Source of the DNA: Acidobacteriota bacterium
GTDB lineage: Bacteria; Acidobacteriota; Terriglobia; Bryobacterales; Bryobacteraceae
Reading direction: 5' to 3'
Length of the DNA: 7,287 nucleotides
Assembly (NCBI GenBank): GCA_021788955.1
Contig: JAJYKC010000114.1
Coordinates: 1-7,287 of the forward strand
Made by a program: the position numbers and the translations under genes
Shown here: piece by piece, positions 1,547-5,010 of the stretch
Numbering within the stretch: position 1 is the stretch's first letter
How the letters are laid out: each line of letters opens with the position of its first letter
The notes under the pieces: generated by a model
The model's input: only the letters and a program-made list of their open reading frames with translations
The model's database searches: none
Told to the model about the DNA's origin: nothing

Positions 1547-2260
1547 ATGATGACGAGCCTGTGGATAGGGGGGGCGCCGGCGGCGGGCGTGGCGTGGTTT
1601 AGCTGGGCTGTGCGCGGGCGAACGTCGCAGGTGTTTGCGCCTTCGGTCTACCGGGGCGCGAGGGATCGGAAGTCCGTCGCGTTGACGTTCGACGACGGGC
1701 CTTCGGAGTCGACGGCGCGGCTGCTGGAGGTTTTGGCTCGCGAGGGCGTGCCGGCTACGTTCTTTTTCTGCGGGAGGAATGTCAGGAGGTTGCCCGAAGT
1801 TTCCCGGGCTGCGGCTTCGGCGGGGCATGAGATTGGGAATCACACGGAGAACCACGCGAGGCTATGGCTGCGGAGTGCGGCGTTCGTACGCGAAGAGCTA
1901 ATGGGTGGACAGAAGACGATCGAGGACGTGTGCGGTGCGAGACCCCGATTGTTCCGCGCACCTTATGGAGTGCGGTGGCCGGGGCTTGCGGCGGCACAGA
2001 GGGAAGCAGGGTTGACGGGGGTGATGTGGACCGTGATCGGGCGGGATTGGAAATTGGGCGCGGAGGCGATTGAGAAGCGGTTGCTCGGCGGGACGTGCGG
2101 AGGCGCGATACTCTGTTTACATGACGGCCGGGGCGTCATGCCGGATCCGGACATCGCGCAAACGCTCCAAGCCGTGCGGCGCGTGATTCCGGCGCTTCGC
2201 GACCGCGGATATCAGTTTGAGACGGTGACTCAAATCTTATGCCCGACCAAGACGACGTAA
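1547..2260 (+). CDS. Membrane-anchored polysaccharide deacetylase (NodB homology domain, CE4)
   Basis: A metal-dependent de-N-acetylase of carbohydrate esterase family 4, acting on GlcNAc-type residues of a glycan outside or at the membrane. The 237-residue product begins with a short N-terminus and a hydrophobic segment (about 4-22, LWIGGAPAAGVAWFSWAV), likely a signal-anchor. The NodB domain follows. Motif 1 is TFDDGPS (D49 catalytic base, D50 metal ligand). Motif 2 is GNHTENHARL (H99 and H103 metal ligands). Motif 3 is RAPYG (137-141). Motif 4 is GRDWK (D167, W168). Motif 5 is ILCLHDG (L191, H192). All motifs are intact, so it should be active. ATG 1547 or the adjacent ATG 1550 is chosen because GGGAG (1537-1541) lies 5-8 nt upstream; a TTG at 1499 in the same frame lacks such a site. 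It is the first gene of a three-gene operon, and its last 22 nt overlap the ACP gene. The substrate is unknown. Confidence 0.93.
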   Translation: MMTSLWIGGAPAAGVAWFSWAVRGRTSQVFAPSVYRGARDRKSVALTFDDGPSESTARLLEVLAREGVPATFFFCGRNVRRLPEVSRAAASAGHEIGNHTENHARLWLRSAAFVREELMGGQKTIEDVCGARPRLFRAPYGVRWPGLAAAQREAGLTGVMWTVIGRDWKLGAEAIEKRLLGGTCGGAILCLHDGRGVMPDPDIAQTLQAVRRVIPALRDRGYQFETVTQILCPTKTT

Positions 2261-2511
2261 CCCAACGTGTGATTCAGGTGATCACGACGGCGCAGCATCT
2301 GGAGCCGGCGGCTGTGACGGAGGCTAGCACCTTCGAGGAACTGCATATCGATTCGCTCGACGGGATCAACATCCTGTTCGCGCTCGAGAACGAGTTCAAC
2401 GTGAACATTCCGGATGAAGAGGCCCAGAAACTGCGCTCTGTAAGCGAGATCTCCGAGGGTATCCGGAAACTGCTCGAGGCGAAAGCCGGGAGCGCGGGCG
2501 CGGTGGTCTGA
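2239..2511 (+). CDS. Acyl carrier protein (dedicated, next to KAS)
   Basis: A 90-residue cytosolic acyl carrier protein that would hold the growing acyl chain on a phosphopantetheine arm. The attachment site is Ser39 in the motif HIDSLDGINILFALE, followed by the usual acidic helix II and the EFNVNIPDEE stretch of type II ACPs. Length and spacing match normal ACPs (about 75-90 residues), with a short Gly/Ala/Val tail. The ATG lies inside the deacetylase gene (22-nt overlap), and only a weak purine stretch precedes it, so translational coupling is likely. The ketosynthase starts 2 nt after its stop. This context points to a specialised ACP like NodF, not the main AcpP, which usually sits beside fabG/fabF/rnc. 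Its partners beyond the adjacent KAS cannot be seen. Confidence 0.95.
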   Translation: MPDQDDVTQRVIQVITTAQHLEPAAVTEASTFEELHIDSLDGINILFALENEFNVNIPDEEAQKLRSVSEISEGIRKLLEAKAGSAGAVV

Positions 2512-2513
2512 AC

Positions 2514-3722
2514 GTGCGGCGCGTAGTGGTCACCGGGCTGGGCGCGGTGACGGCTTTCGGCGTGGGAGTGAAGCCGCTGTGGGAAGCGCTGGCAAGCGGG
2601 CGGCCGGGGTTTGCCGAGATCGAGGGCGTGGACCTGGAGCGGTTGCGGTTCCGGTTTGGGGCGCAGGTGCGGGGATGGAAGGGCGAGGAGCATTTCGACC
2701 CGCGCGAGGCAACGCTACTCGACGCGTTCGCGCAGTATGGAGCGGTGGCGGCGCGGGAGGCGATCCGTGAGGCGGGGATCGAGTGGACGCCGGAGTTGCG
2801 CGAGCAGACGGCGATTGTGACGGGGTCGTGCGTGGGCGGGCAAGGGAGCGAGGACGAGGAGTTCGTGGCCTTGTACGGGCGCAGCAGTCCGCGCGTCAGC
2901 CCGTTGACGATTCCGCGGATCATGGGGAACGCGGCGGCGAGCCGGATATCGCTTGAGCACAGGATTGTCGGGCCGGTGTACACGATTTCGACGGCGTGCT
3001 CGTCTTCGAACCATGCGCTAGGGCAAGCGTTTCAGCTTGTGCGATCGGGAGCGGTGGAGATGGCGATTGCGGGCGGCAGCGAGGCGGTGTTCAGTCTGGG
3101 ATTCCTGAAAGCGTGGGAGGCGATGCGCGTGGTGTCTCCGGACACGTGCAGGCCGTTTTCGGCGGACCGCAAGGGGCTGATTCTGGGCGATGGCGCGGCG
3201 ATGCTGGTGCTGGAGCCGATGGAGGCGGCGAAGGCGCGGGGCGCGGCGATATACGGAGAGATTGTCGGGTTCGGGATGTCGAGCGACGCGCATCATGTTA
3301 CGCAGCCGAGCACGGACGGGGCAGCAAGAGCCATGCGGGCAGCGTTGCGGGACGCTGGCTTGGCGGGGGAAGCGATCGAGTATGTGAATGCGCACGGTAC
3401 GGGCACTCAGGCCAACGACGCAACCGAGACAGCGGCACTGAAAAGCGTGTTCGGCGCGCATGCGGAAAGGCTGAGAGTGAGTTCGACGAAGTCGATGCAC
3501 GGGCACGGGCTGGGAGCGGCGGGGGCGATTGAAGCGGTGGGGACGGTGATGGCGCTGCGGGAGGGCGTGCTGCCGCCGACGGCGAATTATACGGCGCGAG
3601 ACGCGGCGTGCGACCTGGATGTGATTCCGAACGAGGCGCGGGCGGCGGCGTGCGAGTACGCGCTTTCGAATTCGTTTGCGTTCGGCGGGTTGAACGCGGT
3701 GGTTTGTTTCCGGGCGGCTTAG
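2514..3722 (+). CDS. Beta-ketoacyl-ACP synthase, FabF/NodE type
   Basis: A condensing enzyme that joins malonyl-ACP to an acyl chain by decarboxylative Claisen condensation. The 402-residue protein is full length for KAS II. The catalytic triad is complete: Cys162 in STACSSSNHA, His294 in VNAHGTGT, and His331 in KSMHGHGLGAAG (with Lys326). The C-terminal gate loop is NSFAFGGLN, with Phe390 where FabF has its acyl-pocket gating Phe. The block LKAWEAMR...PDTCRPFSADRKG (198-221) and the end ALSNSFAFGGLNAVV resemble, from memory, NodE-like synthases. The start is GTG 2514, giving the typical RRVVVTGLG beginning; GGTGG about 8 nt upstream may serve as ribosome binding site. It is the last gene of the operon. 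Its TAG overlaps the opposing MFS stop. Chain specificity is unknown. Housekeeping FabF is the alternative, but the deacetylase neighbour and lack of other fab genes argue against it. Confidence 0.95.
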   Translation: MRRVVVTGLGAVTAFGVGVKPLWEALASGRPGFAEIEGVDLERLRFRFGAQVRGWKGEEHFDPREATLLDAFAQYGAVAAREAIREAGIEWTPELREQTAIVTGSCVGGQGSEDEEFVALYGRSSPRVSPLTIPRIMGNAAASRISLEHRIVGPVYTISTACSSSNHALGQAFQLVRSGAVEMAIAGGSEAVFSLGFLKAWEAMRVVSPDTCRPFSADRKGLILGDGAAMLVLEPMEAAKARGAAIYGEIVGFGMSSDAHHVTQPSTDGAARAMRAALRDAGLAGEAIEYVNAHGTGTQANDATETAALKSVFGAHAERLRVSSTKSMHGHGLGAAGAIEAVGTVMALREGVLPPTANYTARDAACDLDVIPNEARAAACEYALSNSFAFGGLNAVVCFRAA

Positions 3723-5010
3723 TCCGGCTCGGTGGGGTGCAATTCGAGCGGGGTGACGGGGTCGATGAACGGCCAGCAGAAGGCGCCGCATAGGTAGACG
3801 GCGGCCATGGTGTAGAGGAAGATGTTCCAGTTGCCGTGGGTCGCGTGGAGGATGTAGCCGCCGGCGACGGGGGCGACGAAGCCGGCGAGGTTGCCAACCA
3901 TATCATGGAGCCGGAGACGGTGCCGGCGAAGCGGCCGCCGATGTCCATGCAGGCGGTCCAGGAAGGCGGCATGACGAGGTCGTTGCAGAAGCTCGCCAAG
4001 CCCATGACGATCATGGCGAGCGGGGGGCTGTTCAACTGGCTGCAGAGGGCCATCAGGAGGGACGCGCCGACGAAGGCGGAGGCGGCGACGATGCGGCGGG
4101 CGCGGGCGGTGCCGCCGATGTGGCGGGCGAGCGGGGCGAGGAGGAAGCCGCACAGCAGGGCGCCTGTGCCACCGAGCAACAGCGGCAGGACGGAATAGTT
4201 GGCGCTGGCCGATTCGGAAAGGTGATGGCGCTCCTGGAGCCAAGTGGGCAACCAGGTGATGTAGAAGTACCAGGGGTAGGTGAGGCAGAAATACTGTACC
4301 CACAAAAGAAGTACGCTGCGCGAGCGGACGATTTTGCCCCAGGGGACGTGAGCATGCGTGGAGGCCTGAGAAGCGCCGTGGTGGATGAGCGCGAGTTCGG
4401 CGGCGTTGACGCCAGGGTGGGCAGCCGGGTCGTTGCGATACCAGCGTGCGAAAAGGACGGCCCAGGCGACACCGAGGATACCGAACACGGTGAAGGCCCA
4501 ACGCCAGTTCATCCACGTTAGGCAGAGGACAACGAGTGGGGGAGTGAATGCCCCGCCCCAGCGTGCGAATGTCCAGAGGATGCCCTGCGCGCGCGTGCGC
4601 TCGCCGTGTGGGAGCCAGGTGGCGAAGGCTTTGGTGAGGTTGGGAAAACAGCCCGCTTCGCCGGCGCCAAACAGGAAGCGCACGGTGACCATCGGGGTGA
4701 AGGAGAACATCCAGCCGGAGAGTGCCTTGAAGGCGCTCCACCAGAGCACGATGCGGAGGAGCACGGCGCGGGCGCCGAGGCGGTCGCCGAGCCAGCCGCT
4801 GGGGACCTCGAAGATGGCGTAGGCGAGCGCGAAGGCGCCGAAGACGTAGCCCATCTGCTCCTTGCTCAGATGAAGATCGCGCATGACGAGCGGAGCGGCT
4901 TGCGAGATGGAGACGCGGTCGATGTAAGAGAGGATGGCGAGGGTAACTGCGAAGACGATGACCCAGTAGCGGGCGCGTGTTGGCGTTTCGGTGGCGTGGA
5001 CGGGCGTCAC
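3719..5010 (-). CDS. MFS transporter, ACS (anion:cation symporter) family, with a one-base frameshift near the 3' end
   Basis: An inner-membrane proton-coupled symporter of the ExuT/GudP/phthalate-like group, expected to import an organic anion such as a sugar acid; the substrate is not determinable. The first 369 codons show clear 12-TM MFS architecture: TM1 with ILSYIDRVSISQA (26-38), motif A GWLGDRLGAR (72-81), the ACS hallmark GAGEAGCFPN (115-124), and the TM10-11 block WTACMDIGGRFAGTVSGSM (351-369). The frame then breaks. The expected continuation MVGNLAGFVAPVAGGY and a further 44 residues are encoded one frame over and end at TAA 3719. Restoring one base gives about 430 residues, the normal family length. 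Read without correction, the frame runs on to 3298 with a Ser/Pro/Arg-rich tail that resembles nothing. The start is GTG 5010, overlapping the cutA stop as GTGA, with a TGAGG ribosome site 7 nt upstream. This is either a sequencing error or a recent pseudogene. Confidence 0.9.
3899..3906 (-). other. Frameshift site in MFS gene (apparent one-base deletion)
   Basis: On the minus strand the sequence reads ATG AT ATG GTT GGC (3906 downward). One more base between the two ATGs, for example AAT, would give S-M-N-M-V-G-N, the usual ACS-family wording at this place. Everything before (residues 1-369) and after (60 residues) matches the family. The missing base lies at about 3902-3903. No X-XXY-YYZ slippery heptamer is present, so programmed shifting is not supported. 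Confidence 0.85.

Follow-up and report, generated by a model that had tools for sequence, protein, structure and literature searches.

A NodE-related ketosynthase, a specialised acyl carrier protein and a separable CE4 deacetylase in Bryobacterales: a candidate envelope-lipid operon

In rhizobia, a gene for an acyl carrier protein (ACP) and a gene for a beta-ketoacyl-ACP synthase (KAS) form the pair nodF-nodE, which is found with nodA, nodB and nodC. Other ACPs are tied to other lipids: according to the available excerpts of two sources, the acpXL-lpxXL cluster of Rhizobiaceae serves very-long-chain lipid A (PMC11901934), and AcpR is a specialised ACP of serine palmitoyltransferase, SPT (PMC9386255). 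Here we analyse an acidobacterial ACP-KAS pair that follows a CE4 deacetylase gene, an operon for which no description was found by title or abstract in the open-licence literature.

The window, that is, the whole 7,287-nt stretch of DNA analysed, had been read in a first-pass annotation as holding a self-contained set of three intact genes on one strand, the first two overlapping by 22 nt and the last two spaced by 2 nt, with every catalytic residue in place and a resemblance to NodB-NodF-NodE. The ORF map confirms the layout, including the 2-nt gap between ACP and KAS, and alignment confirms the residues. The features are as follows.

1547-2260, + strand: CE4 polysaccharide deacetylase, 237 aa (ORF, Pfam, alignment)
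1571-1612, + strand: CE4 N-terminal helix, residues 9-22, then RGR; likely membrane anchor, predicted C-in (model, homologues)
1691-1696, + strand: CE4 motif 1, Asp49-Asp50 (invariant columns)
1841-1855, + strand: CE4 motif 2, His99...His103 (invariant columns)
2239-2260, + strand: CE4/ACP reading-frame overlap, 22 nt (ORF map)
2239-2511, + strand: specialised ACP, 90 aa (ORF, Pfam, alignment)
2353-2355, + strand: ACP Ser39, phosphopantetheine site (aligned with AcpP Ser36; invariant)
2514-3722, + strand: NodE-related KAS, 402 aa (ORF, Pfam, NCBIfam, trees, alignment)
2997-2999, + strand: KAS catalytic Cys162 (aligned with FabF Cys163)
3393-3395, + strand: KAS His294 (aligned with FabF His303)
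3504-3506, + strand: KAS His331 (aligned with FabF His340)

The trio is flanked by minus-strand genes for a sialate O-acetylesterase-like protein, an MFS transporter, CutA, a beta-propeller-like protein and a TPR protein, and its best homologues with a named source are mostly from Bryobacteraceae. An ORF and Pfam reading of the window found no fabZ, second fabF or dehydrogenase gene, and Pfam and NCBIfam found no nod gene among its other genes, the only NodB match being that of the CE4, below cut-off. The MFS transporter gene (minus strand, 3719-5010) has an apparent frameshift near 3890-3905, where its C-terminus seems to run on in another frame (ORFs 3298-5010 and 3719-4741); this may be a sequence error.

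The KAS matches the N- and C-terminal ketoacyl-synt domains of Pfam at 160 and 132 bits. It scores 454.1 bits against the fabF equivalog, below the cut-off of 493.75, and passes one FabF subfamily model of broader scope (442.5 bits, cut-off 387). A tree of 94 rows was rooted on a third KAS of Acidobacteria. In it, one clade of 73 rows (98/90) unites the 64 rows of the acidobacterial family (support 100/98) with NodE and with plasmid KASs of Xanthomonas and Paracoccus, and FabF forms a clade apart (10 rows, 99/88). The sister of the acidobacterial family is NodE together with the Xanthomonas (99/90) and Paracoccus (97/89) sequences; one Streptomyces row and L130, an acidobacterial row that joins with support 96/46, lie just outside the NodE-containing clade. 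Two rows are labelled NodE by their place in the tree, L157 being unannotated and the L162 stretch having no annotated nod gene, and labels for gene surroundings ('near type III PKS' and the like) were assigned by hand. A tree of 38 of the 94 rows, from which the atypical L130 and the long rows of Legionella, Streptomyces, Pantoea and L083 were omitted, again unites the family with NodE (100/99). On it, a grouping of the family with FabF to the exclusion of NodE is rejected (AU p 0.004); this test was chosen once the 94-row tree was known, the FabF grouping itself having been named beforehand in the first-pass annotation.

Residue patterns point the same way in part. Twelve diagnostic columns are common to the family and NodE: each is shared by 80% or more of the 52 family rows counted and of the 7 NodE rows, and occurs in no more than one of 10 FabF rows and one of 7 rows of the third KAS. 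The 52 exclude L130 and the 12 rows of a subclade linked to type III polyketide synthases (PKSs). Twelve columns are common to the family and FabF and not NodE, and two to NodE and FabF and not the family. A stretch of the loop before CRPF that is present in two FabFs, of Klebsiella and Acidobacteria, is missing from the rows inspected of the family, of NodE and of Xanthomonas and Paracoccus. At the ACP-facing surface, Arg68 of FabF presumably acts alongside Lys65 and Lys69. A basic residue (K, R or H) stands at FabF positions 68 and 69 in 10/10 FabF rows, as against 0/47 and 1/47 family rows and 0/7 NodE rows, while positions 65, 128 and 206 are kept in 47/47 family and 7/7 NodE rows; position 65 is lost in all 12 rows of the type-III-PKS-linked subclade. 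Mutation of K65, or of K65 and K69, weakens crosslinking of FabF to AcpP, according to the excerpt available (PMC7138838). Judged from trees and alignments, the KAS is related to NodE, as part of a sister lineage that lies outside the NodE group. A housekeeping FabF identity was rejected on the equivalog score, on the tree and its AU test, and on the separate acpP-fabF pair found in relatives.

The ACP (34.8 bits against Pfam PP-binding) is not AcpP and, by alignment, does not look like a NodF either. AcpP position 41 is acidic in 8/8 AcpPs and Asn or Gln in 33/33 Bryobacterales ACPs, whose mean net charge is -8 versus -15 for AcpP; the six NodFs compared are all acidic there, unlike the Bryobacterales ACPs. 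By alignment, the family ACP also departs from these NodFs at AcpP positions 30, 38 and 56, as well as 41, and in the helix II motif. Since NodF is acidic at position 41 and differs from AcpP elsewhere, the ACP probably represents a separate family and not NodF; it is distinct from AcpP and less acidic. AcpP itself was rejected as its identity because position 41 and charge are altered and a separate acpP stands beside fabF in 14/14 relatives.

This last count comes from 14 genomes reached via ACP loci, each with one KAS 55-70% identical to the window's and another at 40-44%. The second KAS adjoins an ACP that scores 48-55 bits with the family profile, against 109-140.5 bits for family ACPs, and a separate acpP-fabF exists besides the trio-type ACP-KAS in 14/14. 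Because the housekeeping pair coexists with it, the operon pair is additional and dedicated in these relatives, and by extension probably so in the window. The earlier suggestions of a NodE-like KAS and of an ACP other than AcpP were upheld, and the housekeeping grouping that would have spoken against them was not seen. One of the relatives surveyed, G013 (genome of L025), has sixteen ketosynthase matches, several in frames of 1,100 to 6,464 aa, and appears to be a polyketide-rich acidobacterium.

The deacetylase is a sound member of its Pfam family (Polysacc_deac_1, 116.2 bits, cut-off 23.1) with intact motifs. In an alignment of the window CE4 with 16 relatives, T47 to S53, H94, N98-H99, H103, R137, P139, D167-W168 and L191 to D193 are invariant; motifs 1 and 2 presumably keep their usual CE4 roles, that of motif 2 being metal binding. 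A longer frame is possible from a TTG at 1499, and close homologues start near MTSLW or MITSLW. The AlphaFold model has a mean pLDDT of 87.3, with residues 1-30 at only 50-70, and the solved folds nearest to it are GlcNAc deacetylases, with peptidoglycan and chitin deacetylases and acetylxylan esterases among the nearest. An N-terminal hydrophobic stretch recurs in 108/119 homologues and a charge bias in 112/119. Positively charged residues flanking a membrane helix tend to stay inside, and by this rule the CE4 is probably membrane-anchored and cytosol-facing (C-in), as far as the model and homologues allow. The earlier label of a NodB-like deacetylase was not sustained. NodB is the best NCBIfam model, at 131.5 bits against a cut-off of 240, and the best topology of a 33-row tree keeps the CE4 apart from NodB, with the joined topology still compatible with the data (AU p 0.10); a first tree of 68 rows had included very long rows, and in the smaller one eight acidobacterial CE4 rows and many rows of trio and solo CE4s were dropped. 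On the profile cut-off, a NodB identity of the CE4 was set aside; 'NodFE-like' applies to the KAS and its pairing with the ACP.

The arrangement of the trio is beyond chance. A search with the ACP alone returned 80 loci, of which the 31 acidobacterial ones were counted and the 49 from other phyla left out; the next gene downstream is the KAS in 30 of them, and the next upstream the CE4 in 24. In 21 of 25 loci the end of the CE4 frame overlaps or abuts the aligned start of the ACP. We then turned to the order as a whole: 81 genomes were drawn and one left out, and at cut-offs of 1e-20 (ACP), 1e-130 (KAS) and 1e-45 (CE4) the remaining 80 yielded an ACP in 50, a KAS in 48 and a CE4 in 74. Among the 50 ACP genomes, CE4 is adjacent in 37, KAS in 44 and all three stand together in at least 31, a lower bound, as G375 and G384 were scored KAS-less although their loci L191 and L192 hold a KAS that is shortened or lies at a contig edge. 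The expectation that relatives keep the trio together thus held for these genomes and not for the rest: ACP-KAS stands apart from CE4 in 13/50, and four genomes have a CE4-ACP pair with the KAS elsewhere. CE4 is present in 50/50 ACP genomes and in 24/30 without ACP (Fisher p 0.002, kinship uncorrected).

The CE4 is also found alone. At the cut-offs used, 24 of the 74 CE4 genomes have neither ACP nor KAS, and in four of them (G316, G356, G347, G314) nearly the whole genome is in one contig. Thirteen score 304-350 bits and 11 score 228-255 bits, the latter being perhaps a different subgroup; in the 68-row tree, the solo CE4s L169, L171 and L174 are placed among those of trios. These genomes and tree places indicate that the CE4 is separable and serves some purpose independently of the acyl module, and together with the ACP-KAS pairs apart from CE4 and the KASs located elsewhere they imply that a joint pathway is not obligatory. 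Three of the 13 solo-CE4 loci read (L170, L173, L174) keep parts of the trio's upstream genes, as do ACP-KAS pairs without CE4 (L195, L198). Other recurrent upstream genes (arginine genes, an MR/MLE enolase and a MoeA-like protein) occur whether or not ACP-KAS is present, and we treated them as background. A conserved protein of about 323 aa (c4; L022:6889-7944, L019:8876-9847), upstream of the trio or of ACP-KAS, has no Pfam or NCBIfam match and is MoeA-like by eye.

Partner genes were sought in two ways. NodA, which the first-pass annotation had thought might be borrowed from elsewhere, was found in 0/59 genomes of ACP-bearing relatives (G006 being left out of the 59), with a positive control of 4/4 rhizobial plasmids and 14 built-in controls matched in 0. 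Nor did a linked gene recur directly after KAS: the largest same-strand cluster within 120 nt covers 2/40 loci.

Outside the order, the ACP-KAS pair keeps other company. The family ACP occurs at 1e-20 in at least 27 of 297 genomes elsewhere in the phylum (at most 17 candidates scored per genome in most), and at 30 such places CE4 is adjacent in one and KAS lies within about 1.5 kb in 24. The neighbours fall into several kinds in 28 wider acidobacterial loci, each cluster named from one representative. A type III PKS-like gene, with chalcone synthase Pfam domains and DpgA as best NCBIfam model below cut-off, lies near related ACP-KAS pairs in 13 (L129, L131, L137, L139, L140, L141, L143, L144, L145, L146, L147, L151, L152), sometimes with an FAD monooxygenase. 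In four (L134, L135, L136, L138) an LpxL-like acyltransferase follows ACP-KAS and a divergent fatty acid desaturase lies upstream. In four others (L127, L128, L132, L133) an epimerase and an alpha-oxoamine synthase (the aminotransferase) are convergent with ACP-KAS; these are gene kinds of bacterial ceramide synthesis, though the synthase scores below SPT cut-offs. An LpxD gene (282 bits, cut-off 242.5) precedes the pair in Paracoccus, and in rhizobia the pair is NodFE itself. A plasmid search with the ACP gave three weak matches. The ACP-KAS of the Xanthomonas sacchari plasmid (L153), whose KAS has the highest identity among plasmids (54%), adjoins arginase-family, GNAT and class III aminotransferase genes. 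Such varied lipid-gene neighbours favour a portable module that would furnish various lipid pathways with a special acyl chain, although their nearness in other clades may be accidental.

Our preferred reading, to which we give a probability of roughly 0.55, is an envelope-lipid operon in which a NodFE-type acyl module is co-expressed with a separable, probably membrane-anchored deacetylase. Its parts differ in strength. From sequence kinship, the ACP-KAS is very probably a NodFE-type specialised acyl module, and its product is on balance likely to be an envelope lipid. The KAS would elongate an acyl chain, which the special ACP, with a surface unlike that of AcpP, would keep apart from bulk fatty acids and pass on to a dedicated acyltransferase whose gene would lie elsewhere. 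The CE4 N-deacetylase would free an amine on an N-acetyl sugar, possibly lipid-linked; it may be co-expressed with the acyl module as both remodel the envelope, and would also work without it.

The odds of the rivals overlap with those of this reading and need not sum to one. The best surviving rival, which we consider rather unlikely, is that the genes are neighbours by history only, an ordinary wall or polysaccharide deacetylase being read through into a secondary fatty-acid module. The partial upstream surroundings shared by solo CE4s and CE4-less ACP-KAS loci would fit such a history, as would the wall- and polysaccharide-type enzymes among the CE4's nearest solved folds, but the overlap or touch of frames kept across those divergent loci and the co-occurrence of CE4 with ACP, uncorrected for kinship, argue against it. 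Doubtful to a greater degree is the pathway first proposed, a stricter form of our own reading in which the amine freed by CE4 is exactly the one acylated with the NodFE-like chain. Adjacency, overlapping frames, co-occurrence and the CE4-ACP pairs that stand with KAS elsewhere all speak for it, and the predicted C-in anchor would put the CE4 on the acyl-ACP side; against it are the 24 genomes that keep CE4 alone, the placing of some solo CE4s among those of trios, the missing NodA in the genomes searched and the lack of a recurrent gene after KAS. It is very improbable that ACP-KAS duplicates FabF-AcpP as a reserve or stress copy for making bulk fatty acids, for the score above one FabF subfamily cut-off is outweighed by the equivalog score, the tree, the altered KAS and ACP residues and the coexisting acpP-fabF.

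Returning to the envelope-lipid operon, a bolder extension can be stated, which we regard as a long shot: rhizobial NodB-NodF-NodE might be one instance of an older, wider scheme in which a cytosol-facing deacetylase and a dedicated ACP-KAS jointly attach an unusual N-acyl chain to an envelope glycolipid, a scheme that would still operate without NodA in free-living Acidobacteria. Whatever its fate, a non-symbiotic phylum is shown to hold a sizeable group of KASs that is sister to NodE, a determinant of host range. As ACP-KAS pairs related to this one lie close to lipid genes of several kinds, it becomes testable where the acyl chain of the Nod factor came from, as does an envelope lipid, hidden so far, of abundant soil bacteria.

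Among the described systems, as far as the excerpts go, the likeness to AcpR lies in the extra ACP beside an oxoamine synthase and epimerase at four acidobacterial loci, which are outside the window's clade and whose synthase is below SPT cut-offs. With acpXL-lpxXL, on the same partial basis, the operon has a dedicated ACP and KAS in common, and an LpxL-like acyltransferase accompanies the pair at four acidobacterial loci outside the window's clade; the window differs in having no fabZ, second fabF or dehydrogenase, and Bryobacterales have no such acyltransferase directly after KAS. The CE4 shares fold and motifs with NodB, its top NCBIfam model, but carries an N-terminal hydrophobic stretch that four NodBs inspected by eye do not have. 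NodF differs from the family ACP in that the latter has DGIN in helix II, which six NodFs lack. From rhizobial NodF-NodE the pair is set apart by the missing NodA (0/59 genomes here), by a location outside any nod gene cluster and by a sister position of its KAS, to which NodE is less close than to the KASs of Xanthomonas and Paracoccus. What it has in common with NodF-NodE is an ACP gene directly before the KAS gene, KASs in one clade and, within them, the KAWE segment, His329 and the loop deletion.
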